Positions 1-55,561 of a stretch of DNA of 64,000 bases are shown here, in pieces; the stretch's first letter is position 1, and each line of letters begins with the position of its first letter. The notes below the pieces were generated by a model, which was given only the letters and a program-made list of their open reading frames with translations, was not told the origin of the DNA and made no database searches. This stretch comes from Beroe forskalii (taxonomy: Eukaryota; Ctenophora; Nuda; Beroida; Beroidae). The position numbers were made by a program, and so were the translations under genes. The stretch spans positions 1 to 64,000 of the forward strand of contig WFMF01000147.1 of NCBI GenBank assembly GCA_011033025.1. The letters are read 5' to 3'.

Positions 1-170
1 GGTTTCACAACAACAACAAAATTTTATTCATTTTGATGAAATGAGAGCTTTGAGCCAACAAAATAAAACATTAAACAGGTTTTGAAAGTAACTCGCCGCA
101 CCCTTTTCAGAAATCTGCCTACGCCCCTGATTTGAAGAAACTGCAAAATAACATACAATGAAGTCCTAAC
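1..170 (-). other. Intron of the MCC homologue, donor side
   Basis: This stretch begins at the 5' splice site that follows the large MCC exon (gttagg on the minus strand, immediately left of base 171). It holds no coding sequence I can recognise. The remaining C-terminal exon or exons of MCC must lie left of the window, because the human protein continues for roughly 80 residues after the equivalent point. Confidence 0.6.
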
Positions 171-1519
171 CTTGTAAGAGCATCGTTAGTCCTCTTCAAG
201 TCTGCAATGAACGTGTTCTGCTGGCCGTTCCTCATTTCCGCATTCCTTGACAACCTCTCAATGTTCTCTGTCAACTCCGCCATCTTCAGTTTCAGCTTCT
301 TCTCCCTCTTGAGCGCCTCCGATAGCTCCATCTCCAGAGTAAACTCCTCCGGGTTGGGCTCGCCTGCACTCTTCGCCTTGGCCTCCTTGGTGAGGCGGCG
401 CCTCTTCCGCAGCTCCTCCCGCCACTCCGTCTTGTAGTAACTCATCTGCGTCTTGTAGCCCTGCTCTTGGAGCTTGGCGGCTTCCAGCCGGAGCTCCAGA
501 GTCCTCAGCTCCTGCTGCGACAGGTACGCCATCGCCTTCATCTCGGCGCGTTCCTCCTTGGCGCAGTTGAGCTCCTGCAACATGACTGCGTGCTCCAAGT
601 CCAGGCGGAGGTCTGTCTTGGAGCTGCCGCTTCCAGTCGGCTCAGTGTCCTGGGTCAGGATGTTCGTATCCAGTTCAATGTTAACGGAGGCTTTCAGCGC
701 GTTCTTGTGGCCCTTCAGTTGTTCCTTGTACTCCTTCAACTTGAGCATTTCCGTCTGCGAAATCTCAATCTCCGCGGCTGCTGAGCTCTGAGACCCGACA
801 CTACTGGCGCCATTGCTATGTCTGCTGGTGTGAGTGCTGTTGCTCATCGTTTCCCACACCCCAGAAGGGTCTTCTAGTGTTTTCTCGAGTTTCTGGAGTA
901 AGGATTTCGCCCTCATTTCCACTTGCCGGCGACTGTTCATTGCCCGCTTTCTTTCGATGGTAACCTTACCCGACGTCAGAGCTCCAACCTTGGAATCCTG
1001 CCCCGACTTGTTACAGTTCGCAATGAGCAGATTCTGTTCGGAGTCTGACAAAAGGTTCAGTACTTCTGACACCTCCAGGCCCATCTCTGAATATTTGAGA
1101 GCCAGGGTAAGAGCACTGTTCGCCGCATCGTATTGGCCCACTAGCATGCTCAGTCTGTTCGCATACCCCTTACTCTCAGCCAGAGTCAGCGCCATCACAT
1201 CTATCTGGCTCTTGAGATGCTCCACTTTGGTGTTCTGTCGCTCTAACTGCAGTTCCCGCTCCTTCATCTTCTTATCCACCTGTGCGGAGCCGTGACTGAA
1301 GAGAGTTTTGATGACATCACGAACTGAAGCACAGTCCTGAAGAGCTTCAGAGAGGGAGGAAGCGGTGTCAGTGTCCATGACACCGGTGTCAGCTGCCCGT
1401 GACACCTCTGTGTTGATGACAGCTTTGTCTGCCAGCTGCTGCTCCAGGGTAAGTTCCTCACCCTTCTCCTCTTCTACTGCCTCATCTTTAATAGAGGCTG
1501 GTCCTCGCTTCAACAGCTC
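171..1519 (-). CDS. MCC: MCC homologue, large coiled-coil exon
   Basis: This internal exon of 1349 bp has a clean acceptor (ctttctcag, 1520-1521 on the minus strand) and donor (gttagg). It encodes about 449 residues. The match to human MCC is strong and collinear: LQDC, then TLFSHGSA, VEHLKSQ, RLSMLVGQY, LALKYSE and SDSEQNLL in the first third; DLEHAVMLQEL in the middle; RREKKLK-type and DLKRTN near the end. MCC is a mostly coiled-coil cytoplasmic and nuclear scaffold that binds PDZ proteins and modulates Wnt/beta-catenin, NF-kB and cell-cycle signalling in vertebrates. The reading frame is open throughout and joins in phase to the upstream exon (EKQ|ELLKR). It ends in phase 2, so the gene continues beyond the left edge. 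The GC-rich codon use contrasts with the AT-rich introns. Confidence 0.93.
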
Positions 1520-1524
1520 CTGAG

Positions 1525-1795
1525 AAAGGAGTGAGAAGTTAGAGCTTTAGAGAGGCGGAGTGAGGAAAAGAGGAGTTAGAGGGGAAGGAGTGAGGAGTCA
1601 GAGCTTTAGGGGGGCGGAGTGAGGAAACGAGGAGTTAGAGGGGAAGGGGTGAGGAGTCAGAGCTTTAGAGGGGCGGAGTGAGGAAACGAGGAGTTAGAGG
1701 GGAAGGGGTGAGGAGTCAGAGCTTTAGAGGGGCGGAGTGAGGAAACGAGAAGTTAGAGGGGCGGGGTGAGGAAACGAAGAGTTCGGTGGACTAAA
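1525..1795 (-). repeat. 59-60 bp pyrimidine-tract minisatellite beside an MCC splice acceptor
   Basis: About four tandem units of roughly 59-60 bp begin immediately next to the acceptor of the 171-1519 exon. Read on the transcribed (minus) strand, each unit is very pyrimidine-rich and contains ctctgactcc and ctctaactcc, which fit the metazoan branch-point consensus yUnAy. The array therefore extends the intron's polypyrimidine and branch-point region from tens to hundreds of bases. Units differ by a few substitutions, including aag/aac and agg/ggg variants. Confidence 0.85.
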
Positions 1796-3800: not shown

Positions 3801-4593
3801 ACCACTGAGCCTAGAAGAGGCCCACTGAAGACTAGTGGAGGCTGAGTGGAGCCTAGTGGAGGCTGTGTGTAGCCTAGAGGAGGCTGTGAGGAGCCTAAAA
3901 GAGGCTTACTTAAGACTATTGGAAGCTGTGGTGAGCCTAGTCGAGGCCTGTTGAGCCAAGTGGAGGCTGAGTGGAGCCTAGTGGAGGCTGAGTGGAGCCT
4001 AGTGGAGGCTGAGTGGAGCCAAGTGGAGGCTGAGTGGAGCCCAGCGGAGGCTGAGTGGAGCCTAGTGGAGGCTGAGTGGAGCCTAGTGGAAGCTGAACGA
4101 GCCTAGTAGAGGCTCTGAAGAGCCCAGTGGTCCACTAGGCTACACTCAGCCCCACTAGGCCCCACTAAGCCTCCATAAGGCTCCACTCAGCCTCCACTAG
4201 GCTCGACAAAGCCTCGACTAGGCTCACCACAGCCTCCACTAGTCTTGAGTAAGCCTCTTCTAGGCTCCTCACAGCCTCTTCTAAGCTACACACAGCCTCC
4301 ATTAGGCTACACTCACTCTCCACTGTGCTCAAATCAGCCTTCACTAGTTGTAGTAGAGCCTAGAGGCTGAGTGGAGTCTAGTGGAGCCTTCGTGTAGCCT
4401 AGTGGAGGCTGAGTGGTGCCACAGCCCTACTAGGCCTCACTCAGCCTCCATTCACTCTCCACTATGCTCCACTCAGCCTTCACTAGTAGTGGGGGCTGTG
4501 TGGAAGCTGAGTGGAGCCTAGTGGAGGCTGTGGGGGAGCCTAGTAGAGGCCTTATAGTGCCTAGTGGTCCACTAGGCTCCACTCAGCCTCCAC
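3800..4593. repeat. 21-bp aggct array in both orientations (left block)
   Basis: The unit is close to gaggctgagtggagcctag. Plus-oriented units fill about 3830-4130, then the complement (ctaggctccactcagcctc) fills about 4130-4340, then mixed orientation follows. The unit itself contains inverted aggct/agcct, so single strands can fold at many registers. No coding capacity is credible; the open frames here only reflect the absence of stop codons in the unit. Confidence 0.9.
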
Positions 4594-4901
4594 AAACCAT
4601 TGTATAAAGCCCTAAAACCGAAGCATCCACGCTTCATAAGTCTTTTCCAGCAGCCTAAAATCAATAGTAAGGTCCTACCATGACGACCGAGCCTAGAAGA
4701 GGCTTACTGAAGACTAGTGGAGGCTGAGTGGAGCCTAGTGGAGGCTGTGAGGAGCCTAAAAGAGGCTTACTTAAGACTATTGGAAGCTGTGGTGAGCCTA
4801 GTCGAGGCTTTGTCGAGCCTAGTGGAGGCTGAGTGGAGCCAAGTGGAGGCTGAGTGGAGCCTAGGGGAAGCTGAAGGAGCCTAGTAGAGGCTCTGAAGAG
4901 C
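4594..4901. repeat. Second leader copy and aggct array
   Basis: This is a repeat of the 85-bp leader followed by about 200 bp of the gaggctgagtgg array. It is interrupted on the right by the insertion at 4910-5851; the array resumes at 5852 directly after the target-site duplication. Confidence 0.85.
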
Positions 4902-4909
4902 CCAGTGGT

Positions 4910-5851
4910 CCCAGTGGAATAATATGAGGAATGTTGGAGCGACAATCCCAGCCAAAATTTGTCCAAATCGAAGCAAAAAAGCCCATTTAGGTTGACAGAA
5001 ACTTGATATTAATATTTGGCTATTTTACGCCGCGCAATTATTATCATGGTCTCAACTCGCTAGTTTTGATAAAGGAGCAATTTCCAAACTGCGTCAGAAT
5101 CCAATTAACGCGCACAAAACGCGTCATTCATTCCTAAAAAAAGCTACCAGGATCCTAATCTAGCCAAAATATTCCCAAACTAGCTGCCAGACTCCAAAAG
5201 TAGCCAGGGACTCCTAAAATCCGCTGCAAGGATTCCATTGCTTGTTTATACATCCAGGAACTCATTATATCAACTTTTTGTCGAAGCAGTGTTTTGTGAT
5301 TCATTGGAATGTGGGAACCTTATCAGCCATATGGCTCAATATGTTTCGAAATAATGTACTTAGCAATGTTGACTTCGAGGTCCCTGTTTGGATAGTGAAA
5401 TCCCTTATGACGCAAAAAGGCATTTTTGCTACTTTATGACTCCATGATAGTATAAAATATAATGAACGTGCAGCTCTTTGCGTTATATCGCCCGAGTTCC
5501 AAGCTTAATTGAGTAGTGTTGCGCGCGCTGACGCGCGCAAACACACTCACTAATAACATTACTTGCTTTGCATACGAAGTAACCTCCGCAGAACTTCCAT
5601 CTTTGCCTGATACATACTAATGCGCGGCGCATGTAGTGAAAAGAAAGTGATTTCACATTATTCCATTTGTATCTGTTATTTCGTAACTTCATCGTCTCAT
5701 GTTGCCTAGTGAAGACATGTAATTCAACGGTATCGAGAATGAAATCATGACTGAAGTAGTCTTAGACACGCCGCCGGCCGCTAGACAGAAAAAAGCCGTT
5801 TTTCCCGCGAAATCCCCATTCCCAGCCACTTATAAAAATTATTCCACTGGG
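4910..5851. mobile_element. Non-autonomous DNA transposon with 8-bp target duplication
   Basis: Terminal inverted repeats cccagtggaataat / attattccactggg are flanked by a perfect 8-bp duplication ccagtggt (4902-4909 and 5852-5859). An 8-bp duplication is typical of hAT and some P/Merlin-type transposons. The 942-bp interior carries no transposase that I recognise. It inserted into the aggct array, so it is younger than that array. Its first seven terminal bases (cccagtg) are the same as those of the element at 35988-38145. Confidence 0.88.
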
Positions 5852-7910
5852 CCAGTGGTCCACAAGGCTACACTCAGCCCTACTAGGCCTCACTCAGCCT
5901 CCATAAGGCTCCACTCAGCCTCCACTAGGCACCACTCAGCCTCCACCAGGCTCAACAAAGCCTCGACTAGGCTCACCACAGCCCCCACTAGTCTTCAGTA
6001 AGCCTCTTCTAGGCTCCTCACAGCCTCTTCTAAGCTACACACAGCCTCCATTAGGCTCCATTCACTCTCCACTATGCTCAACTCAGCCTTCACTAATTGT
6101 AGTGGAGGCTGAGTGGAGCCTAGTGGAGCCTGCGTGTAGCCTAGAGGAGGCTGTGGGGAGCCCAGTCGAGGCTTTGTAGAGCCTAGTGGAGACTGTGTGG
6201 AGCCTAGTGGAGGCTGAGTGGTGCCTAGTGGAGGTTTTGTCGAGCCTAGTTGAGGCTTCACACAGCCTCCACTAGGCTCAACACAGCCTCCACCAGGCTC
6301 CACTCAGCCTTCACTTGGCTCCACTCAGCCTCCATTAGGTACTACTCAGCCTCCACTAGGCTCCACAGAGCCTCCACCAGGCTCCACAGAGCCTCCACTA
6401 GGCTCCACAGAGCCTCCACCAAACTCACAGAGCCTCCTGGCTCCACTCAGCCTCCACTAGGCTCCACAAAGCCTTCATTAGGATCCACTCACTCTCCACG
6501 AGGCTCCACTCAGCGTTAACTAGTAGTGGAGGCTGTGTGGAGCCCAGTAGAGGCTGGAGACACTCAGCCTCCGCTGGCCTCTACTCAGCCTCCACTGGCC
6601 TCCACTAGGCTCCACTCAGCCTCTACTAGGTACGACTCAGCCTCACTAGACTCACACAGCCTCCACTATTAGTGAAGGCTGAGTGAGCAGTGAGATTGAG
6701 CTATTGAGTGGAGCCTAGTGGAGGCTGAGTGGAGCCACACAGCCCTACTAGGCCTCACTCAGCCTCCACTCACTCTCCACTATGCTCCACTCAGCCTTCA
6801 CTAGTAGTGGGGGCTGTGTGGAAGCTGAGTGGAGCCTAGTGGAGGCTGTGGGGAGCCTAGTAGACTAGTAGAGACTAGATGCCTTGTAGTGCTTAGTGGT
6901 CAACTAGGCTCCACTCAGCCTCCAATAGGCCTCACTCAGCCTCCATTAGCCTACACTCAATCTCCACTATGCTCCACTCAGCCTACACTAATAGTGGAGG
7001 CTCTGTGGAGCTTAGTGGAGGCTGAGTGGAGATTAGTGGAAGCTGTGTGGAGCCTAGTGGAGACTGAGTGGATCCTAGTGGACCACTAGGTTCTACAAGG
7101 CCTCTACTAGGCTCCCCACAACTCAGCCTCCACACAGCATCCACTACTAGTGAAGGCTGAGTGGAGCATAGTGGAGAGTGAGTGGAAGCTGAGTGAGGCC
7201 TAGTAGGGCTATGTGGCTCCACTCAGCCTCCACTAGGCTCCACTCAATAGCTCAATCTCCACTATGCTCCACCCAGCCTTCACTAATAGTGGAGGCTGTG
7301 TGGAGTCTAGTGGAGGCTGAGTCGTACCTAGTAGAGGCTGAGTGGAGCCTAGTGGAGGCCAGTGGAGGCTGAGTAGAGGCCAGTGGAGGCTGAGTGTCTC
7401 CAGCCTCTACTGGGCTCCACACAGCCTCCACTACTAGTTAACGCTGAGTGGAGCCTCGTGGAGAGTGAGTGGATCCTAATGAAGGCTTTGTGGAGCCTAG
7501 TGGAGGCTGAGTGGAGCCTAGTGGAGGCTCTGTGGAGCCTGGTGGAGGCTCTGTGGAGCCTAGTGGAGGCTCTGTGGAGCCTGGTGGAGGCTCTGTGGAG
7601 CCTAGTGGAGGCTGAGTAGTACCTAATGGAGGCTGAGTGGAGCCAAGTGAAGGCTGAGTGGAGCCTGGTGGAGGCTGTGTTGAGCCTAGTGGAGGCTGTG
7701 TGAAGCCTAGTGGAGGCTGAGTAGAGCCTAGTAGAGGCTTAGTAGAGCCTAGTGGAGGCTGAGTGGTGGCCTAGTAGAGCCTAGTGGAGGCTGCCTGGAG
7801 CCTAGTGGAGTCATTTGGAGGCTGAGTGGAGCCTAGTGGAGCCTCCATGAAAATGTTACATTTCAGTTTCCGTGGAGGCTTAGCCTCCACTTAGCCTCCA
7901 CTCAGCCTCC
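5852..7910. repeat. 21-bp aggct array in both orientations (right block)
   Basis: About 2 kb of the same unit as at 3800-4901. Inverse-orientation units dominate 5870-6090, 6250-6520 and 6560-6660. Forward-oriented units dominate 7290-7830, and short blocks flip between them. It ends with aggcttagcctcc at about 7905. The flips make it a very large set of potential cruciforms in one MCC intron. Confidence 0.9.
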
Positions 7911-8242
7911 ATGGATGCTAATGGTACCATTTTGCCCAAGACACGTTAGCAGATGAACTGGTAAGAGATAAGTAGATAGTAGATACATGGATCCATGCCT
8001 GGGAATTATAATCTCTTTCTCGAACCAAAATGTTCTCGAAATTTCTAAACCTGGTCCTTTAGCCACAGGATACCTTTTTGAAAACAAAACGGTGCTTGGA
8101 GGGGAAAGGTTCAGGCGTAAAGCCTCGAAGGGGAAGGTCTGAATGAAATTTATCATTGGAAATCGATTCAGCTCCTTAGAAAACCATTATGCACATGTCC
8201 TGCATGCACTGTGGACAACAAATCAGAAATTAAAAAAATTTG

Positions 8243-8367
8243 GAGTATTTTTGGCAAACTTTGGCAAACTTTGGCAAACTATGGCAAACTTTGGCAAACT
8301 TTGGCAAACACTTTTTTGGCAAACTCAAAAAAGTGGAAGCGTTTGCCAAAGTTTGCCAAAGTTTACC
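8243..8367. repeat. Second tttggcaaac foldback
   Basis: Six forward units (ggcaaacttt), the spacer cacttttttggcaaactc and aagtggaagcg, then inverse units gtttgccaaa. It ends in a homopolymer of about 13 C. The same architecture and spacer occur at 1885-2000, so this is a dispersed foldback family. Confidence 0.75.
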
Positions 8368-8452
8368 CCCCCCCCCCGAGTAGTATAGGGCGCGAGAGCC
8401 TCTAAGATTTGTAAACTTCTGCAGTAAAAGCGAGTAAAACCCTAATTCTAAC

Positions 8453-8604
8453 CTGTTTTTCATCAGTGAGCTGTTTGACATGTTCCTCCAGGTTGTTTAT
8501 CTTCCAGATCAGTTCCTCCCTGGTTTCGCTCTCCGGACCTAGGGCAGCCTCGGAGTCCAGCGTCAGGGGCTCCTTCATCACCCGCTGTACTCCTTCCAGA
8601 CTTC
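8453..8604 (-). CDS. MCC: MCC homologue, coiled-coil exon
   Basis: This 152-bp exon has acceptor ttccag (8605-8606) and donor gttaga (8451-8452) on the minus strand. It encodes SLEGVQRVMKEPLTLD through NNLEEHVKQLTDEKQ, an acidic linker followed by heptad-like sequence. It begins two bases into a codon, completing the glycine started by the upstream exon. It ends in phase 0 and joins EKQ to ELLKR in the large exon. It corresponds to the region just before the strongly conserved LQDC segment of vertebrate MCC, which is poorly conserved in sequence. The assignment rests on phase continuity and position. Confidence 0.85.
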
Positions 8605-8763
8605 CTGGAAACGTGAAACACAATTCAGAGAGAGGTGATGGAAGGAAGGAGTAAAAAGGAGTGAAATTTATGAGTAGAGGCCAGAGTCTACGTGAGTGCT
8701 TTTCCTTTCAACACTTTCAATTTCTCCGGACATTATTCTTTATACTCCCACAGTCGCACATAC

Positions 8764-8947
8764 CATCATTTATTTGTTCCTCAATGTCTTTCCTCTGTCT
8801 GAGGTAAGCCTCACACTTCTTCCTGTAGACATCCTTGAGTTGCATGGCCTCCGTCTGTCCTGACTTGGCTGCTCGGAGCTCTGCCACGGTCTGCTCCATC
8901 TGAGCCTCCACCCTCTCCAACTCTGCTTCCGTCTTACTCAGCTGCTC
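8764..8947 (-). CDS. MCC: MCC homologue, coiled-coil exon
   Basis: A 184-bp exon between acceptor ctcccag (8948-8949) and donor gtatgtg (8762-8763). It reads EQLSKTEAELERVEAQMEQT, then AELRAAKSG, then YRKKCEAYLRQRKDIEEQIN. This is a long uninterrupted coiled coil with regular hydrophobic spacing. It begins in phase 0 after DSLK of the upstream exon and leaves one base for the next junction (ND-G). Its phase fits both neighbours. The start methionine of the longer open frame here lies in the intron and is not used. Confidence 0.88.
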
Positions 8948-9114
8948 CTGGGAGGCAGGAGTAACACGGTGAGAGAATGTCTGGGGCAACATCCCACCAA
9001 TCCCACGAGATAAGGAATGTAGTTCGCTCAGTCAGTTGTTCATGAAACGAACTCTGAGCGAGATATACAGGTTTTCTCTATTATATGTAGTAGGTGAGTA
9101 GGTGAGATTCAAAC

Positions 9115-9280
9115 CTTGAGACTGTCGAAGAGTTTGTTGTTCTTGCGGGCCTGCTGCACCTCCGGGAGGATGTTCACCATTTCGCCCTCAGCCCGCGCCA
9201 GCTCCTGCTGCAGCTTGTGGCACTGCCCGCACTTCTCAACCCCATCCTTAAAGAGGATCACCCGGTCGTCTTGTGAGTAC
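9115..9280 (-). CDS. MCC: MCC homologue, exon whose acceptor has been amplified
   Basis: A 166-bp exon with donor gtttga (9113-9114) and acceptor ccccag (9281-9282). After one carried-over base it reads YSQDDRVILFKDGVEKCGQC, then HKLQQELARAEGEMVNILPE and ARKNNKLFDSLK. The CGQC motif followed by a coiled coil fits the middle of MCC. The first five codons and the 3' splice site are repeated about 19 more times upstream (9283-10066), so the true start of this exon is ambiguous. The acceptor at 9281 keeps phase with downstream exons, and the outermost copy at 10065 also has a good acceptor. Confidence 0.82.
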
Positions 9281-10066
9281 CTGGGGAATGTAGAGGATCA
9301 CCCGGTCATATTGTGTGTACCTGGGGGAGGAGAATTAACAAGGTCATCTTGTGTGTACCTGGGGAAGGAGAATTAACAAGGTCATCTTGTGAGTACCTGG
9401 GGGAGGAGGGGGAATTAACAAGGTCGTCTTGTGAGTACCTGGGGGAGGAGGGGGAATTAACAAGGTCGTCTTGTGAGTACCTGGGGAGGAGGGGAATTAA
9501 CAAGGTCATCTTGTGAGTACCTGGGGGAGGAGGGGGAATTAACAAGGTCATCTTGTGAGTACCTGCGGGAGGAGGGGGAATTAACAAGGTCATCTTGTGA
9601 GTACCTGGAGTATGGGGGGAATTAACAAGGGCGTCTTGTGAGTACCTGGGGAATGAGGGGGAATTAACAAGGTCGTCTTGTGAGTACCTGGGGGAGGAGG
9701 GGGAATTAAAAAGGTCATCTTGTGAGTACCTGGGGGAGGAGGGGGAATTAACAAGGTCATCTTGTGAGTACCTGGGGGAGGAGGGGGAATTAACAAGGTC
9801 ATCTTGTGAGTACCTGGGGAATGAGGGGGAATTAACAAGGTCATCTTGTGAGTACCTGGAGTATGGGGGGAATTAACAAGGTCATCTTGTGAGTACCTGG
9901 GGAATGAGGGGGAATTAACAAGGTCGTCTTGTGAGTACCTGGGAGAGGAGGGGAAATTAACAAGGTCATTTTGTGAGTACCTGGGGGAGGAGGGGGAATT
10001 AACAAGGGCGTCTTGTGAGTACCTGGGGGAGGAGGGGGAATTAACAAGGTCGTCTTGTGAGTACCT
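9281..10066 (-). repeat. 42-bp minisatellite of complete 3' splice sites
   Basis: Twenty acceptor copies are spaced 38, 40, 41 or mostly 42 bp apart: 9281, 9321, 9359, 9397, 9439, 9481, 9521, 9563, 9605, 9646, 9688, 9730, 9772, 9814, 9856, 9897, 9939, 9981, 10023 and 10065. On the transcribed strand a unit has cttgttaatt (a good branch-point match), then ccccctcctcccccag, then gtactcacaagatgac. The last part repeats the first codons of the adjoining MCC exon (YSQDD). The innermost unit also copies the exon's gaggatcacccggtc. The outermost unit differs, with a t-rich tract (aatttttcag). In the exon's frame a 42-bp unit reads YSQDDLVNSPSSPR; the 41-bp units shift the frame. Confidence 0.95.
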
Positions 10067-13000
10067 GAAAAATTGTGACAGGATTAGGGCACTGAGGAAA
10101 TGAGGGGGGAATCAGGGCATTGAGGAAATGAGGGGATTTTATTGAGGAGAAAATCAACCACTTGGTCACCTTATGAATAGCTCGGGTAGCATTATAGTAC
10201 TTATAAGGTGAGGCAAGGGAGAGATAGGCTCGGGGGAAGTGAATTGACTGAAGGTAAAGTTGGTAACATAATATACGCTTTCGCCTCACATCCTGACACA
10301 CTTTGAACGGTTTTATTCTTGAATGGTGGACTGGGGTGGACTTATTTTGTTTCAATGACCTTGCATTACATAATTTTCTATTGGTTTCAAAAACAGCATG
10401 GCCATTCATGATTCAAGACGTCTGGTGCCATAGCCCATATCAGTATAACATGCTGAAGGAATAACGTCATCATATTGGAAATTGGAAATATCATTTCCGT
10501 AAAACAGCATTTTAATACCAACGTCTTTAAAATTGATGATTTGACCACATTGCATGTTCAGCTATGTGGCCAATATCCCACTGCCACAATAGGTCGCAAA
10601 GAGAGTGACGTCATTATCATAGTTGAAAATGGGGAGTTAATGACGTTTAAACCGTGTATTGAGCACGCAGAACCACCGCCATGTGGCTGGCATACAGTAT
10701 CAAGTGCGAAATAGTGTTAATACTGTGCATGTTACTAACGACAATCCTGCACTTCAAGGGTTTAAATGACACCCTGTGAAACAGCCGTTTTAAAACAGCC
10801 CAGGAAAGGCGAGACAACAACTTGGGGAGGTGTCATAGGCAGTAGGAACATGCCTCCAAAATGGTTTGTTCCTTCCTGAATACTCAATGCTCATGTCTCC
10901 ATCCTGAAAACTCATGTCGGAGAAGTGTTCAGGAAGTAACACGGAATAATCACCAAGAACTAAGAATGCTATACCTATTCAACTTACCTCTTCTTTTTGC
11001 TCCTTCGCGGAATACTCTTATTCAGCGCATTGATTTGCGCTTGTGATTCAATGTAACACGGCATTTTACATTCTCCTTCTGGTGTATATTGGAAAATAAG
11101 CAATAGGGTAAATGAAAATTTAATAACATCATCTGCTTATATCATTTTTTGAAAATAAAAACCATATGCGGAAAGGTAGAGAAGTCAGAAATGTCATTTC
11201 AAAGTTTCGGAGTACTAGCACTATGAAAACATCACGGACAAAGGCCATTGCTACCGACGTGAGTGCGGTTCTTTTGGAAACTTTCCAGATGAATTAGACC
11301 AAATAAATACCAAAGTATTATAATAATACAATTGACGAAAATTTTTATCAATAGTAAGTAAGTTGCAATGATGAACAAATTGCAGGCATCTCTTAGTCTT
11401 CAGAGCTTAATTAATTTATCGCCAGTCAACAGTGACAAATTAACGCAATTAAATCAAGATAATGTAGTGGTGAAATTGCGACTCTGAGTGCAGCAAAGAT
11501 TGGGGAAAGAAGCCCTATCATTTCCTTTTTTTGATGCATAAGAGTAACTAATTATTCTATTAAAACTCAGGGACTGCACAAGTGTTATTTTCGAGCTCTA
11601 AAATGTGATAAGAGGAGCACAAAATTCAGAACATTCCGTTTGAAATACCAAATCACTGGGTTACACGAAGGATAAATGCTGGGAAATTGCCACAATTAGG
11701 AGTACAACAAATCTGGCAAAATGAGGGGAAATCTTGTCGCCGCAGAATAAAATATGTATGGAGAGTTAAGAATTGAGGAAAATGCACAAACTTCAGACTT
11801 GAATTTGAGGCAAATGCAAAAGCAACCAGACGTGAGAAGTACAGCAGATACAGCAAACCATGGGAGTGGAGTAATGACTTCCAATTTATTGACCCAGTTT
11901 ATACCCGTACCAGACATGGTCAAAACACTCAGGTTATATTGTATGCTGAGACTGATAGTCAACTGTGCATGGCTAACAGGAGGTGATCAGCAGTGTCTTA
12001 CTTCGAACCCTGATAATAGTGCCGCCAGGTAAAGATAATATCACGCCAATAAGGACAATGTACCACGTGACCAATACAGCCTATAACGTTAGTGGAACCG
12101 ACAGTGGAAGTAGTTTTGACTCTAGCTCTCGACACTCAAACCGTCCGCAGAGGGTATTTCCAAACTAGCTTAAACGTCTTTAGTCACTTAGTCTTTACTT
12201 TGACAACGACCGCCCCGAATCCTTCTTAGAAATAATAATAATTCAGGCAGAATTACGCTTTACATCATGAGCCGAAGAGGGTTGTACGGACTAAACATCA
12301 GCACAATTATACCTGACAAAATGAATGGAAATTTCAAATGATGTTCAGTTGTTCAAATTTCTGAGCAACTGTTTCAAAGCACCAATCCACTGATGATCAG
12401 TGATCCGGGGCAGATTCTCGGTAGGGGACGAATAACACTCACCAGCCAGTGAAAAACCGACAAATACCGTACACTCGATATCAGCAAGAACATCAGTCAC
12501 CGCCAACATGAAAGTCTTGGCCATCTAAACCGTAATTATACTCATTTATAACCTCAATTGTAAAAATTCCATCAATGCACAATTAATTATAATGAAATGA
12601 CTTCTGAAAACTCAGTTCACGTAAAATTACAAAGTGTAATTAATAATTAAATAATTTATCCAAAAAAAACTGTTCACGACTTCACTATCATACAAACATG
12701 CAATCTGAACTTGAACCCTTGAAGACTTGCACTCAGTTAAATTCACTTGAACATCAACAGTACCCACATATTATCAAAACCTGATCTGTCCCGTTTAGAC
12801 ACTAATAAATTTGTTGTTAATGAAGTAATGAATGGAACAATAGGGAAAGATTCTCAGTAGAAATTTAATTATCCACTCACAGATGCAAACCAAACAATGG
12901 TCTACTCGGTTGAGTGATTTATTGGAAAACTGCTTACACCTCTTATCAGTTATCAGGACGTGGAAAAAGTTCAAAATATTTCCAGAAAGAACGTATCCTG

Positions 13001-25869: not shown

Positions 25870-26660
25870 AGGGTGAGTAGGAGCAGTAGGTGTGGGAGCA
25901 GAAGGCTGAGCAGGGGTGGGAGCAGAAGGCCGAAGAGAGGTGGGAGCAGAAGGCTGAAGAGAGGTGGGAGCAGAGGGCTGAAGAGAGGTGGGAGCAGAAG
26001 GCTGAGCAGGGGTGGGAGCAGAGGTGGGAGCAGAAGGCTGAGGAGAGGTGGGAGCAGAAGGCTGAGCAGGGGTGGGAGCAGAAGGCTGAAGAGAGGTGGG
26101 AGCAGAAGGCTGAAGAGAGGTGGGAGCAGAAGGCTGAGGAGAGGTGGGAGCAGAAGGCTGAGGAGAGGTGGGAGCAGAAGGCTGAGGAGAGGTGGGAGCA
26201 GAGGGCTGAAGAGAGGTGGGAGCAGAAGGCTGAGGAGAGGTGGGAGCAGAATGCTGAGGAGAGGTGGGAGCAGAAGGCTGAGGAGAGGTGGGAGCAGGAG
26301 GCTGAGCAGGGGTGGGAGCAGAAGGCTGAGGAGAGGTGGGAGCAGAGGGCTGAAGAGGTGGGAGCAGAAGGTGAGGGTGGGAGCAGAAGGCTGAGGAGGG
26401 TGGGAGCAGGGCAGAGGTGGGAGCAGAAGGCTGAGCAGGGGTGGGAGCAGAAGGCTGAGGAGAGGTGGGAGCAGAGGGCTGAAGAGAGGTGGGAGCAGAG
26501 GGCTGAGGAGAGGTGGGAGCAGAAGGCTGAGGAGAGGTGGGAGCAGAGGGCTGAAGAGAGGTGGGAGCAGAACGCTGAGGAGAGGTGGGAGAAAAAAGCT
26601 GAGTGAGGTGGGAGCAGAAGGCTGAAGAGAGGTGGGAGCAGAAGGCTGAGCAGGGGTGGG
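25870..26660 (-). repeat. 24-bp minisatellite, SPQPSAPT-coding on the minus strand
   Basis: About 32 copies of gtgggagcagaaggctgagg plus agag, with c/g and a/g variants. On the minus strand, in the frame that enters the FLYWCH remnant, each unit encodes TSPQPSAP. The array therefore looks like an expanded proline/serine/threonine-rich N-terminal segment of the transposase open frame. Indels around 26355-26420 break the frame. The long plus-strand open frames (tryptophan-glutamate-glutamine-lysine repeats, arginine-glycine-serine repeats) are by-products of the stop-free unit. Confidence 0.88.
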
Positions 26661-27010
26661 TGGGAGCAGGGGTGGTTGAGGGGAAGGGGGTGGGTATGCT
26701 AGCAGGGGTGGGTTGAGGGAGGGGTGGGTGAGGAGCAGGGTGGGTTGAGGGGCAGGGTTGAGGGCAGGTGGGTTGAGGGGCAGGGGTGGATTTGGTAGCA
26801 GGGGTGGGTGTGGTAGCAGGGGTGGGTGGTAGCAGGGGTGGGTATGGTAGCAGGGGTGGGTGTGGTAGCAGGGGTGGGTGTGGTAGCAGGGGGTGGTGTA
26901 GCAGGGGTGGGTTGAGGGGCAGGGGTGGGATGAGGGACAGGGGTGGGTTGAGGGCTAGGGGTGGGTTGAGGGCCAGGTGTGGGTTGAGGGCCAGGGTGGA
27001 GGGTGGAGGG
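26661..27010 (-). repeat. Second G-rich minisatellite (ggtgggtgtggtagcagg)
   Basis: Irregular units of about 18 bp (ggggtgggtgtggtagca and ggggtgggttgagggcc) directly abut the 24-bp array. On the minus strand they encode PTPATTPTP and PQPTPGPQPTP. Together with the 24-bp array this makes about 1.1 kb of proline-rich coding-like sequence ahead of the FLYWCH remnant. The strong purine/pyrimidine strand bias could also favour triplex or quadruplex structure. Confidence 0.85.
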
Positions 27011-45985: not shown

Positions 45986-48045
45986 AGAGCCCCCTGCCAG
46001 ATTAGAACAACGCCACACTAGGTATTGAATTCGCCACACTATATAAATAATCGCATTGTTAAGATTATATTCGCCACAGGCCACACCCTATGCGTTAACT
46101 TTCTAAGAATGCGTGTAAAGTAGCGGGTAATATTCGCCACACTAGCATTATATTCGCCAAAGTGGTCGAAAGTTTATGAATACACGCAATGCTAAGGAAA
46201 TATTCGCCATGTTTATAAACAATATTCGCGTAGACTATTTTTCGCTGTGCTATGAAAATATTCGCCTACTAGGTAACACATTTATTATTACAGAATATTT
46301 CGCCGTGTTAGGAAAATATTCGCCTATTGGGTAACACATTTATTCTTAGAGAATATTTCGCCGTGTTTGGAAAATATTCGCCAGTTGGGTATCAAATTTC
46401 TTCTTGGAAAACATTTCGCCGTCTTAATAAAATATTCGCCGTATGTTATGATAACATGTACAGTAATCTCTAAGTTACACACATCAACCCCACCCTGACC
46501 TTGATTCACATCTGTACAAAATGTGTTGTAACTTGACTCCTGAAATTTTTCTATTTCATATTATTATCAGATGATGTATTGTTGTACACAAAGTTGCACT
46601 TAGCAATACAGACCAACTGTGTTTAATGTAAATTCAAGCATTTATATTTTTCGGATTAAACACGTCATCATAATGTCATATTGGTTCGTTATAGCCTTAC
46701 GGAGAGCCTAACAGAGAGCCTGTTTTCATATTATCATGGGGGCATAACATAGCGAGGTTTAGAACATAGGAACCAGATTGACTACGAGGGCAGAGCGACT
46801 TAGAAGCAGTATTGGGATTCGGAGAGCTCGGCTTAGTTTGGCGTGAAAGAGCCCAACTTAGTATTGGGTATCCTAACTTAGTGTGGGGAGCCAGAATTTT
46901 TATGGCCAATGGGGTAGCCCGACTTAGTATCATATGGATCCCGACCTACCATCATGGGCAGCCCGAGTCAGTATGTGGAGCCAGACTTGCCGACAGAATT
47001 GACATAGAAGTGACATAGGTAGTGACTTAATATGTGGAGCCCGCCTCATCTATTATGGGGAGCCCAACCCAGTATCATGGGAAACTGCAACTTAATTATT
47101 TACTAATCCCATACTAATTCAGGCTCCTCATACTATTACTAAGTTGGGCTCCCTCATACTAAGTCGGGCACCCCGGTACTATGTTCGGCTCCCACATACT
47201 AAGTCCGGTGTCCCCATGGCCCATATTATTAAGCCAGGCTCCCCATAAGTTAAGACATTAGGTGGGTCTCCCCCATACCAAGTCGGGCTCTCGGCTCTTC
47301 CATGCAAATTAGGGCTCCCAGTATACTAAGTAGGGCTCCCTCGTACTAAGTCGGGCTGCCCGTATTAATTCAGGCTCCCTATACTAAGTTGGGCTCCCTC
47401 GTACTAAGTCGGGCTCCCCCTACTATGTCGGGCTCCCCCTACTATGTCGGTCTCCCTCGTACTAAGTCGGGCTGCCCCTACTAAGTTGGGCTCCCCAATA
47501 CTAAGTCGGGCTGCCCGAATTAATTCAGGCTCCCTATACTAAGTTGGGCTCCCTCGTACTAAGTTGGGCTCCCCCATACTAAGTCGGGCTCCCCCTACTA
47601 TGTCGGGCTACCCCGTACTAAGTTGGGATCCCTTATACGAAGTCGGGCTCCCCATACTATGTCGGGCTCCCTCGAACTAAGTCGGGCAGCCCCTACCAAG
47701 TTGGGCTCCCCAATACTAAGTCGGGCTGCCCGTATTTGTCTAGGCTCCCTATACTAGGTTGGGCTCCCTCGTACTAAGTCGGGCTCCCCCTACTATGTCG
47801 GGCTCCCCGTACTAAGTTGGGCTCCCCCATACTAAGTCGGGCTGCCCGTATTAATTCAGGCTCCCTATACTAAGTTGGGCTCCCTCGTACTATGTCAAGC
47901 TCCCCCATATGTCGTGCTCATACTTAGTCCACATACTAAGTTGGGATCCCCATACAGAGTCGGGCTCCCCCATACTAAGTCGGGCTCTCACATACTAAGT
48001 CAGGTTGCCCATACTAAGTCAGTTTGCCCCTACTAAGTTGGGCTA
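45986..48045. mobile_element. Partial copy of the long-inverted-repeat element
   Basis: It begins agagccccctgccagattag and continues with a field of aatattcgcc motifs (46020-46440), an AT-rich spacer, a short stretch of agcccgacttagt units in one orientation (46840-47080) and about 950 bp of the opposite orientation (actaagtcgggctccc, 47100-48045). It differs from the two arms of the complete element at shared positions (agcgggtaat instead of gatgggtaat; aggtattgaa instead of aggtgttgaa), so it is a separate copy. Its right end is missing. Confidence 0.8.
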
Positions 48046-48205
48046 CCCATTACATTGTGCTGTCATCCTTACACCTTTATTTCAAACACCCTATTACCCC
48101 AATAAACATTGTGCTGTCATCCTTACACCTTTATTTCTAACACCCTAATACAGCCCTAAACATTGTGCTGTCATCCTTACACCTTTATTTCAAACACCCT
48201 TTTTT
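48046..48205. repeat. About 55-63 bp tandem repeat, three copies
   Basis: Three units of cattgtgctgtcatccttac followed by acctttatttcaaacaccct lie between the partial and the complete long-inverted-repeat elements. Confidence 0.9.
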
Positions 48206-49399
48206 TTATTTCAAAATTCAAATTTTACATGAAATATATTTTACAATGTCATTCAGGTTAAAATATTCTGTCATTCCTACTTAACCAAAATAGCACAGAA
48301 AATATAAATCAAGTGCAAAATCTGCCCCCTGCCAGATTAGAACAACGCCACACTAGGTGTTGAATTCGCCACACTATATAAATAATCGCATTGTTAAGAT
48401 TATATTCGCCACAGGCCACACCCTATGCGTTAACTTTCTAAGAATGCGTGTAAAGTGATGGGTAATATTCGCCACACTAGCATTATATTCGCCAAAGTGG
48501 TCGCAAGTTTATGAATACACGCAATGCTAAGGAAATATTCGCCTGTTTTATAAACAATATTCGTAGACTATTTTTCGCTGTGCTATGAAAATATTCGCCT
48601 ACTAGGTAACACATTTATTATAACAGAATATTTCGCCGTGTTAAGAAAATATTCGCCTATTGGGTAACATATTCATTCTTAGAGAATATTTCGCCGTGTT
48701 TGGAAAATATTCGCCAGTTGGGTATCAAATTTCTTCTTGGAAAACATTTCGCCGTCTTAATAAAATATTCGCCGTATGTTATGATAACATGTACACTCTA
48801 AGTTACACACATCAACCCCACCCTGACCTTGATTCACATCTGTACAAAATGTGTTCTAACTTGACTCCTGAAATTTTTCTATTTCATATTATTATCAGAT
48901 GATGTATTGTTGTACACAAAGTTGCACTTAGCAATATAGACCAACTGTGTACAATGTAAATTCAAGCATTTATACTTTTCGGATTAAACACATCATAATG
49001 TCACATTGGTTCGTTGTAGCCTAACGGAGAGCCCGTTTTCATATTATCATGGGAGCATAACATAGCGAGGTTAATAAGAACATAGGAACCATATTGACTA
49101 CGAGGGGGGAGCGACTTAGAAGCAGTATTGGGATTGGGAGAGCTCGGCTTAGTTTGGCGTGGAAGAGCCCAACTTAGTATTGGGGATCCTAACTTAGTGT
49201 GGGGGAGCCCGAATTTGTATGACCAATGGGGGAGCCCGACTTAGTATCATATGGATCCCGACCTACCATCATGGGCAGCCCGAGTCAGTATGTGGAGCCA
49301 GACTTGCCGGCAGAATTAAAGTGACATATGTGGAGCCCGTCTCATCTATTATGGGGAGCCCAACCCAGTATCATGGGGAACCGCAACTTACTTATTTAC

Positions 49400-50356
49400 T
49401 AATTCAGTCTCCCATACTAATTCAGGCTCCTCATACTATTACTAAGTTGGGCTCCCTCATACTAAGTCGGGCACCCCGGTACTATGTTCGGCTCCCACAT
49501 ACTAAAGTACTAAGTCCGGTGTCCCCATGGCCCATATTATTAAGCCAGGCCCCCCATAAGTTAAGACATTAGGTCGGGCTCCCCCATACTAAGTCGGGCT
49601 CTCGGCTCTCCCATACAAATTAGGGCTCCCAGTATACTATGTAGGGCTCCCTCGTACTATGTCGGGCTCCCCTGTACTAAGTTGGGCTCCCGCGTACTAA
49701 GTCGGGCTGCCTGCATTAATTCAGGTTCCCTATACTAAGTTGGGCTCCCTCGTACTAAGTCGGGCTGCCCCTACTATGGCGGGCTCCCCCTACTATGTCG
49801 GGCTCCTCCGTACTAAGTTGGGCTCCCCCTACTATGTCGGGCTACCCCGTACTAAGTTGGGCTCCCCCATACTAAGTCGGGCTGCTCGTATTAATTCAGG
49901 CTCCCTATACTAAGTTGGGCTCCCTCGTACTAAGTCGAGCTCTCCCATATGTCGTGCTCCACTGTCCCCATACTTAGTCCACATACTAAGTTGGGATCCC
50001 CATACAGAGTCGGGCTCCCCCATACTAAGTCGGGCTGCCACATACTAAGTCGGGCTCCTTATACTAAGTTGGGCTCCCCCATACAAAGTCGGGCTGCCTG
50101 CATTAATTCAGGCTCCCTATACTAAGTTGGGCTCCCTCGTACTAAGTCGGGCTTCCCGTACTAATTAAGGCTCCCTATACTAAGTTGGGCTCCCCCATAC
50201 TAAGTCGGGCTGCCCGTATTAATTCAGGCTCCCTATACTAAGTTGGGCTCCCTCGTACTAAGTCGAGCTCTCCCATATGTCGTGCTCCACTGTCCCCATA
50301 CTTAGTCCACATACTAAGTTGGGATCCCCATACAGAGTCTGGCTCCCCCATACTAA
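49400..50356. repeat. 20-bp array actaagtcgggctccccc
   Basis: About 45 units with t/c variants (aagttggg, tatgtcgggct, aattcaggct) and spacers of variable length. The same array fills 47100-48045, 52718-52965 and 53430-53575, and in reverse 53576-54240. The split at 50356/52718 is the insertion point of the Harbinger-like element: the broken unit is ccatactaa / taagtcggg. Confidence 0.9.
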
Positions 50357-52717
50357 GGGCCAAATCGCACGGGGACAAAAATCGTGGAAACTTTCATATC
50401 TCACCAAAATTCGGATTTCACCTATCGTGCGATTTCATTTTTTTAAGGCCACTTTTCGTGAGATCTGAAAACGTGGTGAGAAAAGTGGTGAAAAGTATCA
50501 CCGGCCTCAGGAGAGGTGACAGTTTTCACCACAATCAAATGAAATCTTTGTGGTAGAATCAAAACTCCGTCCGTTTTCAATATCGGTGAGATTTGTCACC
50601 ACTGATCACGTGCAGTGACGAAAAGATCACGCGCATGGTCACGTGATAGAGGTGGAAAGTTTCACGATGGTACAAAAACCAAAACGCACGTTCTGACGGT
50701 GAGATGCATAGCGTTACAACACACGCAGTCATTGACCAATCAGCGCGCTGCATTCCAAGTGCGGGAAACATAGTAATTAGTGGGAAACACAAATAGCACC
50801 AATCTTTTTAAATGTGTATCGTTCATATCTTGCTGTGCCTTCTCATTTCTATAGTGTTGCCACTCTGTATTTACTATTTTGTTTCTTCTCCTGTATTTTC
50901 TATCCTATACAATAATGGCATTCCATTGTAAGATTGTAGCATTGAAGGTTGTGTTAATTCCGACTGATTGATGTAGGAACTTTACTGTAACCAGGTATAA
51001 ACATCCTGCAAAAATATGTGGCCAAGAATAGACAAAGTCGAATCAGATAGCAGAGAAAACAGTGAACCGCAGTGAAAGCAGTGATAACAGCAGCCCCAAC
51101 TCTGTAAAAGCAATCATTTCGAGAAAGTTAAAATCATATTATGCAAGAAAGATATGTAAAAAGATATAAAACCAAAAACGAGAGAATGAAATACAATATC
51201 ATGAAATAAAGTGTGGAATTTGCATTTGATTTGTTTTGATCCAGTTGCATTGCCATGTTGCCATGGTAACACATTCTTCGGAAATAGCAATAACTGAGAG
51301 TGAGAGCAATACGTCATTATCATTAGTAACAATGGTGTATTACTTTTCTCACACATAATTGATATGGACGATAAATGTCGCTAATTACCGGTTTGCAGTT
51401 TGGTACATTGTGCAATTACTGTCCCGTGAGAAATGTAAAAATAGGCACTTTAAGTCATTGACATACCATATTCAACCATAGTAACTACGTCATTCTCATT
51501 TGTTTATTATTACTGTGCTGCAAAACAGAGTTTCACCAAATGTAAATTCGCTCATTTTAGCCATTTCCTTTCATCATTTTGTATCTCTTTCCAAGTTCTG
51601 TTGTAACTGAGGCGTTTCACAAAGTGACATGCTACCAAGATTAATTCATTTTCTCCTTTGTTTGTTTTCCAATTATCGTTTGTAACAAAAATTGCTAGTG
51701 TTTCATCTCAGCACATTTTAGCCAATAATCTTTCGATTGCAAGACCTTTGAGATTGATCCATGCTTTGATTCGATTCCTTAAAAATTTTCGTCCTCTAAC
51801 CATAGGCTTTGCCAGCCCCTTCGAGCCCTGCGTGCTACACGATTTATACTGTTTGCAGTTGCAGTACATTTTGCTTTTTAATTCTGCGTATCGAATGATT
51901 GTATTGCTGTGTATAGTCATGATGATGATGTATGATTCCGTCACATTTTAAGATCGGACATTTTAAGATGGGACGGGAACTACCATGACCCTGCGTTGTT
52001 TTGCAAGCCAGCGCACTGACTTTGTGATGGTATTAGAAATTTGTTTCTAACATGTTCACTGGCATGATGTATGCAGTTTTGAATTGACAGCTTGACTTAA
52101 AATGCTCACTGGGCACTGTCTCGTACCATACTGCTGACTGGTCATCGGTAGATACATTTTAATGCTCATGCCAGGCTGCTGACTGTTCACTGACTCCTAC
52201 CAGACTGCTGACTGTACACTGGGTGCGTTCAGGGTGCTTGGGGTGCACACTGATTTGAAGAGTTTATTCAGGGTGCTTCACCTATTTCAGTAATACAGCG
52301 GCCTGTAGTCATAAACTCAGATGAGCTGTTTAATATTGGACCTGAGCGACGAACCTCCTGAAGCAGAAGACATTTCGGATGCTCTGCAATTGAGCTATCA
52401 AACATGACATTTTATCCGCCGTGCGTTTTGGCGAAAAATAATATTTCCGTGATTCCGAGATCTAGGACGTGACAAATTACACGGATATTTTGTTACGCCG
52501 TGCGTTTTCGCGAAATATAGCAATTTTAGGGACAAATTACGTCGTGCGCTTTGGTGTTATTTTGTCTCCGTGAAACGCATTGAAAAGCTGTCGCCGTACG
52601 TTTTGATCATTTTTATACCGGCGTGAAATATTCCGCCGTGCGATCTCACGAAATTTGGACGTGACAACTGACCTGAGCACATTTTTTCACGATTTTTGTC
52701 CCCGTGCGATTTGGCCC
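50357..52717. mobile_element. PIF/Harbinger-like non-autonomous element, TAA duplication
   Basis: The ends gggccaaatcgcacggggac and its complement are perfect inverted repeats for at least 30 bp. They are flanked by a 3-bp TAA duplication (50354-50356, 52718-52720) inside an array unit whose empty form is known from its neighbours (ccatactaagtcggg). A 3-bp TWA duplication is typical of PIF/Harbinger. The 2361-bp interior has no recognisable transposase or Myb-like protein. Motifs such as cgccgtgcg and gtgcgattt recur near the right end. Confidence 0.87.
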
Positions 52718-52965
52718 TAAGTCGGGCTGCCACATACTAAGTCAGGTTGCCCATACTAAGTCAGGTTGCCCATACTAAGTTGGGCTACCCATTCTAAGTT
52801 GGGCTACCCATACTAAGTTGGGCTACCCCATACTACAACTCGAGCTCCTTCGTACTGCACTAAGTAAGGCTTCCACATACTAAGTTGGTTCCCCTATGTT
52901 GAATACTAAGCCGGGCTCCCCCATTCTTATTCGGTATCCCCGCCACGTCAGGCTCCCCGTACTAT

Positions 52966-53429
52966 CTTATCGGACATAATGATCACGGACTTTAGTTTCA
53001 CGGACCTAAAACTTCACGGACATTAATATTCACGCCCGATCCAGCCACTTCAAATTTCAAGAAAACTTCGAAATTATCGGCTCGATTTTTCCCATTTTCT
53101 TCCACGATTTGAATACTTGAATAGAAGATTTTTTCAATGTTTTTCGTTAATTGATATGATAAATTTCCATATTGCAGGTACTAAGCATGAAAAAGAAGAT
53201 TAATTTCCTTAAAAATTTTATTATTGGTGTAGTGTATTTAAAGAGATAGGGTCAAAATTTGGCGTCTCAACTCTAGAAATTTTAGGAGGAAATACCGGAC
53301 TTAATTTTCACGGACCTGAAAATCACGGACATTAGTATCACGGACAAAATTTTCACGGACATTAATATACCTATATACGTTGAGGTGCTCAGCGTGAATG
53401 TAATGTCCGTGATAATTATGTCCGATAAG
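52966..53429. mobile_element. 464-bp MITE with cttatcggacataat ends
   Basis: Inverted ends cttatcggacataat / attatgtccgataag are followed inward by repeats of tcacggac in direct and inverted forms (about ten copies). It interrupts the same 20-bp array. I cannot define a target duplication (flanks actat and gttta). Confidence 0.8.
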
Positions 53430-54764
53430 GTTTATTGGGCTCCCCCACGATATAAGCCAGGCTCACCCGCACTAAGTCGGGCTCCCAACTTACTGGTTCC
53501 TAAGTCGGGCTCCCCCATAAAGAGTCGGGCTCCCAAATGCAAAGTCGGGTTCCCATATGGCCCATACTAGAGTACTGTATAGTACTTTACTAAGGAGCCT
53601 GAGTTGTAGTATGGGGTACCCAACTTAGTATGGGTAGCCCAACTTAGAATGGGTACCAAGCCCATCTTAGAATGGGTAGCCCAACTTAGTATGGGCAACC
53701 TGACTTAGTATGGGCAACCTGGCTTAGTATGTGGGAGCCCGACTTAGTATGGGGGAGCCCAACTCTGTATGGGGATCCCAACTTAGTATGGGGACTAGGT
53801 ATGAGGTGCCTGACTTAGTATAGGGACAGTGGAGCACGACATAATATGAGAGAGCTGTACTTAGAGACTTAGTATGGGGACTGGGGAGCCCAACTTAGTA
53901 CGGGGAAGCCCGACATAGTAGGGGGAGACCGACATAGTAGGAGGAGCCCGACTTAGTACGAGGGAGCCCAAATTAGTATAGGGAGCCTGAATTAATATGG
54001 GCAGCCCGACATAGTACGAGGGAGCCCTACTTAGTATACTGGGAGCCCTAATTTGTATTCAGAGAGAGCCGAGAGCCCGACTTAGTATGGGGGAGCCCGA
54101 CCTAATGTCTTAACTTATGGGAGCCTGGCTTAATAATATGGGCCATGGGGACACCGGACTTAGTATGAGGGAGCCCAACTTAGTAATAGTATGAGGAGCC
54201 TGAATTAGTATGGGAGACTGAATTAGTAAATAATTAAGTTGCGGTTCCCCATGATACTGGGTCGGGCTCCCCATAATAGATGAGGCGGGCCCCACATACT
54301 AAGTCACTACCTATGTCACTTTAATTCTGCCGGCAAGTCTGGCTCCACATACTGACTCGGGCTGCCCATGATGGTAGGTCGGGATCCATATGATATTAAG
54401 TCGGGCTCCCCCATATGCCATAAAAATTCTGGCTCCCCCACACTAAGTTAGGATCCCCAATACTAAGTTGGTCTCTTTCTCGCCAAACTAAGCCGATCTC
54501 TCCCTATCCCAATACTGCTTCTAAGTCGTTCCCCCCTCGTAGTCAATCTGGTTCCTATGTTCTAAACCTCGGTTATGCCCAATCATGAAATATGAAACGG
54601 CTTAACCTCGCTATGTTATGCCCCCATGATAATATGAAAACGGCCTCTCCGTTAGGCTATAACGAACCAATATGACATTATGATGTGTTTAATCCGAAAA
54701 GTATAATAATTATAAATGCTTGAATTTACATTATACACAGATGGTCTGTATTGCTAAGTGCAAC

Positions 54765-55010
54765 TTTGTTTACATCAATATGATAATTAAATGAAAAATT
54801 TGTTTAAATCTTTTCTGTAAATGCCGCAATAGCAATAAATGCTTCGATTCCTTGTTTAACATGCCGTACAGCAAGGATCTACACTGAGTTCACCATGGTT
54901 AGTGACAAGCCAGTGTGTACAACAAATGTTTTATTTATACCCTCTGTCTAATGGAAATATTTCCTTACATTAATGAAAAATTTCATTTCATTTCCAAATG
55001 ATGTTATATA
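54765..55010. repeat. Dispersed repeat shared with 60525-60640 in inverse orientation
   Basis: The segment containing gccgtacagcaaggatctac and actgagttcaccatggtta matches the complement of 60530-60585 (aaccatggtgaactcagtgt), including flanking gattcc and caatagcaat parts. It lies inside the right arm of the long-inverted-repeat element but not in the left arm, so it is an insertion or a remnant of one. Confidence 0.7.
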
Positions 55011-55561
55011 AGCTAGTCTTTAGAACACATTTTGTACAGACGTGAATCAAGGTCAGGGTGGGGTTGATGTGTGTAATTTAGAGTGTACATGTTATCATAA
55101 CATACGGCGAATATTTTATTAAGACGGCGAAATGTTTTCCAAGAAGAAATTTGATACCCAACTGGCGAATATTTTCCGAACACGGCGAAATATTCTCTAA
55201 GAATGAATGTGTTACCCAATAGGCGAATATTTTCCTAACACGGCGAAATATTCTGTAATAATAAATGTGTTACCTAGTAGGCGAATATTTTCATAGCACA
55301 GCGAAAAATAGTCTACGAATATTGTTTATAAAACAGGCGAATATTTCCTTAGCATTGCGTGTATTCATAAACTTGCGACCACTTTGGCGAATATAATGCT
55401 AGTGTGGCGAATATTACCCATCACTTTACACGCATTCTTAGAAAGTTAACGCATAGGGTGTGGCCTGTGGCGAATATAATCTTAATAATGCGATTATTTA
55501 TATAGTGTGGCGAATTCAACACCTAGTGTGGCGTTGTTCTAATCTGGCAGGGGGCTCTAAT

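Follow-up and report, generated by a model that had tools for sequence, protein, structure and literature searches.

The window (the whole stretch of DNA that we analysed, 64,000 nucleotides from Beroe forskalii) carries a set of coding exons on its minus strand. The C-terminal exon (119..1519, with the open frame ending in a stop at 119) encodes a USHBP1_PDZ-bd domain (Pfam PF10506, E 1.3e-14), so we assign it to the MCC/USHBP1 family. Upstream of it in the sense of transcription are two exons that were read by eye and have a single ordinary acceptor each (8452..8604 and 8764..8947, the latter EQLSKTEAELERVEAQ...), followed by the exon that concerns us most, 9115..9280, which starts with YSQDDRVILFKDGVEKCGQCHK... 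and has the donor AAG|GTTTGA. Farther upstream, a candidate exon was identified by eye and by phase from its 3' part (10988..11062, ...KSIPRRSKKKR, donor AG|GTAAGTT), and the phase at its donor fits exon 9115-9280. The original prediction spoke of an MCC exon; the family assignment holds for the C-terminal exon, which is encoded by that strand too, while strand and order suggest that both exons belong to one gene. The C-terminal exon has a tandem array of its own, at 1520..1772 on the minus strand (1526-1772 according to TRF), which runs into the acceptor at 1520; its units (CTCTAACTCCTC...) are branch-point-like and pyrimidine-rich and include no part of the exon.

At 9281..10065 on the minus strand, next to exon 9115-9280, lies a minisatellite of 3' splice sites, with 20 acceptors; its 19 units are 38-42 bp long (TTGTTAATTCCCCCTCCTCCCCCAG|GTACTCACAAGATGACC). 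TRF reports a single array at 9264-10067 (period 42, 19.5 copies, 90% matches), and if the minus strand is cut at AG|GTAC, then the last intron bases of the 20 acceptors run from 10065 to 9281. So the predicted array of border units is real. Thirteen of the 19 units are 42 bp long, and there are two each of 41, 40, and 38 bp. The repeat unit spans the border of the host gene, as it joins the end of the intron to the beginning of the neighboring coding exon, whose first 17 nt recur exactly in 5 of the 19 units. This agrees with the proposal that the array arose by tandem duplication of the intron/exon border. Rfam gave no match at gathering scores over 8000-12000.

The units were also described as complete 3' splice sites, with 18 nt between the branch A and the AG. 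This is nearly right. All 19 units end in AG and 18 of them contain TTAAT, and the distance from the putative branch A to the G of the AG is 14-18 nt, so that 18 nt is within the range but is not the only value. (Such spacings are short but possible.) Of the 12 nt tested for pyrimidines, 10-12 are pyrimidines at the acceptors of the 18 TTAAT units, as compared to 8 at acceptor 10065 and 10 at acceptor 9281. A branch-point match is present for 19 of the 20 acceptors, and the exception is the exon's own acceptor at 9281: the innermost unit (9281..9320) has no yUnAy match, as the exon-like sequence CCGGGTGATCCTCT stands in the place of TTGTTAAT. Contrary to what had been claimed, the acceptors are therefore not near-equivalent, since the site that can make the protein is the poorest of them in its branch-point match.

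We say that this site can make the protein because of the reading frame. Given the phase of the candidate upstream exon, all 19 outer acceptors lead to a premature stop, and the 166-nt exon stays open from acceptor 9281 only. Four of the outer acceptors add a multiple of three nucleotides, and each of these four additions contains a stop. Furthermore, about 20 nt upstream of 9281 the frame of the exon itself is closed by a TGA, so exon 9115-9280 cannot be extended upstream in its frame, whatever the upstream phase. Only acceptor 9281 can yield the protein in this allele. It had been suggested that whole units would insert YSQDDLVNSPSSPR peptides in frame; for this allele, this is refuted because the product of every outer acceptor runs into a stop. 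A coding repeat was dropped as a description of the MCC array, given these stops.

The two ends of the array hint at its history. The outermost acceptor is preceded by intron sequence that is not part of the array (10065..10089, minus strand, ccctaatcctgtcacaatttttcag) and that carries its own CTAAT, and this is probably the ancestral acceptor. A 21-nt C-rich stretch just upstream of this CTAAT resembles the intron part of the units (4 of 500 shuffles did as well), so perhaps the intron end was already repetitive before the array formed. At the other end, the innermost unit has a tail whose alignment to the tail of the array is better than that of all 500 single-base shuffles, with a contribution from the CCCCAG end that they share. 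Exon bases 18-33, when compared to the array on their own, were unremarkable (89 of 500 shuffles were as good). That the branch-point part of the unit descends from exon sequence is only suggested. When we compared the array to the 216-Mb genome, with very common words skipped, the only match besides itself was a weak one (66%) in another gene. So the array looks to have been born at this locus rather than being a member of a dispersed family. A dispersed satellite was considered and dropped, as searches with the MCC array and with the dynamin unit that we describe next both point to single loci. Growth driven by G-quadruplexes was another idea that we considered and set aside.

An intron of a dynamin gene is a stronger case than the MCC array. 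This intron (L025:5296-9688 on contig C283, minus strand) is 4,392 nt long. Its donor is duplicated at a distance of 44 bp, and the rest of it consists of a 22-bp unit (CAACTAACATCCCACTCCCCAG) in about 197 copies. AG|CAAC occurs at 186 outer acceptors and at the exon's own, which makes about 187. Because the exon itself also starts with CAACTAAC, codons of the exon double as the branch-point match in this array. If the flanking exons are joined at the exon-proximal sites, then 86 residues align to dynamin-1 without a gap at the junction. Of the 186 outer acceptors, 62 add a length that is divisible by three, and none of these additions is open. The signals are not perfectly preserved: the final AG is missing from 22 of the 197 units, and the U of the branch-point match is the position that is most often changed (20 of 142 indel-free units). 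A search with four of these units gave 51 matches, all of them within C283.

A third gene (L030:6874-9360 on contig C383) has a 180-nt exon with an acceptor array before it and a donor array after it, and the next exon lies behind a further acceptor array. The first array (6874-7116) has 5 acceptors in units of 47-49 bp; the donor array has 19 donors in units of mostly 30 bp (GAATGTGGATATAGAG|GTGGGT); and the third array has acceptor units of 32/64 bp. For both acceptor arrays, the identity between the unit and the start of the exon is just five to eight bases. All 18 of the outer donors reach one and the same in-frame TAG. The first array is different: three of its four outer acceptors add open in-frame sequence made of 16-residue units. 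No other acceptor array gave such products (0 of 7 for the array at 8897-9261, 0 of 19 for MCC, 0 of 186 for dynamin, and 0 of 15 for the gene discussed below). The predicted protein had no Pfam match above the cut-off.

The remaining gene (L002 on contig C198; L007 is the same place) was found by its similarity to the MCC array. In front of its coding exon, a 32-bp unit with a branch-point-like TGATAAC, pyrimidines, and CAG|GGACC is present in 18.8 copies. The identity between the unit and the start of the exon is five bases, and the nearest acceptor in a unit is 147 nt from the exon. The pattern of arrays at exon borders thus recurs in three genes besides MCC, and each of these has its own unit.

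Such arrays are not new, and the statement that no system of this kind had been described does not stand. Minisatellite-like duplications of intron/exon borders were named "mirages" in the Adh3 gene of amphioxus and are also described in its globin genes BflGb6 and BflGb9 (PMC3087553), and lancelet PGBD5 and troponin C provide further cases (PMC3902484). As in our arrays, the amphioxus mirages are tandem copies of 3' and 5' borders, and many of the repeats carry AG/GT signals; the units are 10-72 bp in Adh3 and about 150-160 bp in the globins (PMC3087553). For the globins, RT-PCR is reported to suggest regular splicing, and mirages were proposed to be a source of new introns (PMC3087553). Similarly, PGBD5 has tandem repeats of 60 and 108 bp over its 5' and 3' splice sites, which are said not to disturb accurate splicing, and that report cites the mirages of Adh and TnC (PMC3902484). 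Our cases differ in their host, which is the ctenophore Beroe forskalii rather than a cephalochordate, in agreement with its mitochondrial code and its glutamate receptor (see below), and in having arrays on both sides of one exon (in L030). They also differ in copy number, with 20 and about 187 acceptors here as compared to 6 and 3 units in the two haplotypes of BflGb6 (PMC3087553); for PGBD5, the copy number that is named is a triplication, which is imperfect (PMC3902484). Local tandem duplication is also the source of splice signals in the Rogers model of intron gain from AG/GT proto-splice sites (cited in PMC3087553), although in our genes an existing intron is lengthened and we observed no new intron. 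Finally, the CeRep25B minisatellite of Caenorhabditis elegans is intronic and associated with splicing, but it is a named repeat near many alternative exons, and the abstract of that report is silent about copies of the host exon's border (PMC4039745). In the open-licence literature, we found no border arrays outside of lancelets among the listed titles and starts of abstracts, including a subset that was aimed at ctenophores. Our arrays are probably mirages, a kind already published for amphioxus, and what we add is a distant group of animals and some extreme examples.

We also sampled the genome blindly at 20 places chosen by contig number. Seven of these contigs were too short, and the other 13 gave pieces of 10 kb. 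Mirages lie in 2 of these 13 pieces; they number at least four and belong to two genes (the dynamin gene and L030). This is a lower bound, as we read the flanks of 11 of the 21 local arrays in the blind pieces; the arrays in L021, L022, and L029 were inspected and left out of the count. If borders were spaced at one per 0.5, 1, or 2 kb, we would expect 1.7, 0.8, or 0.4 of the 21 arrays to straddle one, as compared to the four that we found, but these spacings are assumed. We do not claim a hot spot, because three of the four blind mirages share one locus. Four mirages per 130 kb (interval 1.1-10.2) would scale to some thousands in the genome.

A larger sample of 234 kb comprises the window, the 13 blind pieces, and four pieces next to known loci. 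Its 98 arrays make up 13.6% of the sequence. Fifty of these arrays belong to families with inverted copies, which are foldback-like, and 48 are direct only; 6 of the 48 are mirages, including the MCC array, which was our starting point, and the L007/L002 array, which was found by similarity. If we look for motifs alone, there is no excess: 5 of the 98 consensus units contain a complete acceptor, as compared to a mean of 4.2 for shuffled units (91 of 200 shuffles were as high) and 5.6 for random cyclised segments (136 of 200 were as high). Motif content does not set the MCC array above chance; what does is the presence, in its units, of the exact border of the neighboring coding exon.

The window has other arrays as well. 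Tandem repeats of 19-21 bp and 58 bp form large families that include inverted copies (3802-7841 and 46240-55346) and resemble foldback elements with repeat-filled arms, and elsewhere, L021:8201-10000 has a tandem-repeat core inside inverted end sequences, which is also foldback-like. A 24-bp pyrimidine-rich array at 25892-26996 (CTCTCTTCAGCCTTCTGCTCCCAC on the minus strand) possibly lies within a minus-strand coding stretch.

How could a gene tolerate such an array? The explanation that we favor, and that we consider reasonably probable, is that the MCC array is a mirage: a minisatellite that grew in place by duplication of an intron/exon border, with the true exon kept by use of the exon-proximal acceptor. 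A duplication across the border would add a border with its own signals, and the old piece of exon would become intronic if the innermost site is used. As most copies bring a branch-point match, a pyrimidine tract, and an AG, growth of the array would leave the true exon intact, provided that the exon-proximal acceptor is used. Minisatellites may be tolerated here because a splice site comes with each unit and the protein is made from the exon-proximal one. Splicing might pick mainly the innermost acceptor if the exon is recognized as a unit together with its downstream donor (exon definition), and the outer acceptors would therefore be bystanders for the most part, although some leakage would give stop-containing transcripts. 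Under exon definition, which is associated with large introns, the sites that are closest across the exon are reported to be preferred, while for short introns it is the sites that are closest across the intron (PMC9225289). The exons beside our arrays are short (166 nt in MCC, 180 nt in L030, and 152 nt in dynamin).

Several observations fit this explanation: the exact copies of the exon start, the confinement of arrays to single loci, the stops from outer sites, and the gap-free junction in dynamin. The eroded AGs in dynamin fit a bystander role of the outer acceptors, although the 19 intact AGs of the 19 MCC units do not discriminate. The choice of the innermost acceptor is not obvious for MCC, because 9281 is the weakest in its branch-point match and has 18 better neighbors, and innermost-only use is not forced at L030 6874-7116, because three of the four outer acceptors there are open in frame. 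Also, stops are expected by chance in long repeats, so they mark which product is usable and not what the spliceosome chooses. We are more doubtful about a broader reading, in which minisatellites are born preferentially at the intron edges of this lineage, thousands of exons are flanked by their own acceptor or donor in tens to hundreds of copies, exon definition makes the arrays tolerable to the spliceosome, and array length tunes the amount of unproductive transcript, and we consider this combination rather unlikely.

Alternatively, the array could be a device for regulated unproductive splicing, in which the strong outer acceptors are often used, the transcripts with stops are degraded, and the length of the array sets the dose of the MCC-family protein. 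This would account for two features of MCC: 18 of the 19 outer acceptors carry a branch-point match and no fewer pyrimidines than 9281, and every one of the 19 leads to a stop. But a device that is maintained should not look like the dynamin array, with AGs lost from 22 of 197 units and the branch-point U changed in 20 of 142, nor should the products of L030 6874-7116 be open in frame. So we consider this explanation improbable. That the assembly collapsed or inflated a repeat, so that the copy number is not real, is less probable still. Assemblies do err at tandem arrays, but the MCC units vary in both substitutions and length, and such arrays occur in four genes with a different unit in each.

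Recursive (ratchet) splicing, with CAG|GTACTC units acting as both acceptor and donor so that the intron is removed stepwise, is slightly less probable again. As at ratchet points, a GT directly follows the acceptor, and GTAC is found after all 20 of the MCC acceptors. Unlike ratchet points, these would be weak donors, judging from the CAG|GTAAGT type of consensus, as GTACTC (or GTACAC, which occurs at two sites) differs from it at +4 to +6. Moreover, in 3 of the 5 acceptor arrays there is no GT after the AG (CAAC in dynamin, ATAG in L030, GGAC in L002), so the juxtaposition of acceptor and donor is not general. Least probable of all, and refuted for the MCC reference allele, is the insertion of in-frame peptide repeats by alternative acceptors, which suits the divisibility of 42 bp by three and the open insertions from three of the four outer acceptors of L030 6874-7116 but not the other four acceptor arrays (MCC, dynamin, L030 8897-9261, and L002), none of which gave an open product.

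Whichever sites are used, arrays of near-identical acceptors or donors beside one exon are the natural counterpart of experiments with duplicated splice sites, which serve to tell scanning, intron definition, and exon definition apart. For this purpose, the dynamin intron is a clear-cut example: it has about 187 acceptors, the protein encoded on either side of it is conserved, and a single junction agrees with that protein. Should mirages prove common in a non-chordate animal, then the amphioxus cases would not be a quirk of cephalochordates, and the idea that border duplication leads to longer or new introns would become testable across many loci.

We also made some observations elsewhere in the genome. 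Contig C1134 (L004 and L005) is mitochondrial, with 13,339 bp, 17.5% GC, and COX1, and its proteins are divergent. Its first 10 kb gave no tRNA when scanned by ARAGORN under the bacterial code. In COX1, TGA encodes tryptophan, and AGA encodes arginine at the motif PRINN. The combination of TGA for tryptophan and AGA for arginine corresponds to code 4, unlike the codes of cephalochordates or other bilaterians. Another gene encodes an intronless glutamate receptor of 979 residues. Its best relative of solved structure is the ionotropic glutamate receptor ML032222a, which is presumably from the ctenophore Mnemiopsis leidyi (219 bits over a chain of 256 residues), and the runner-up is a full-length kainate receptor (213 bits).
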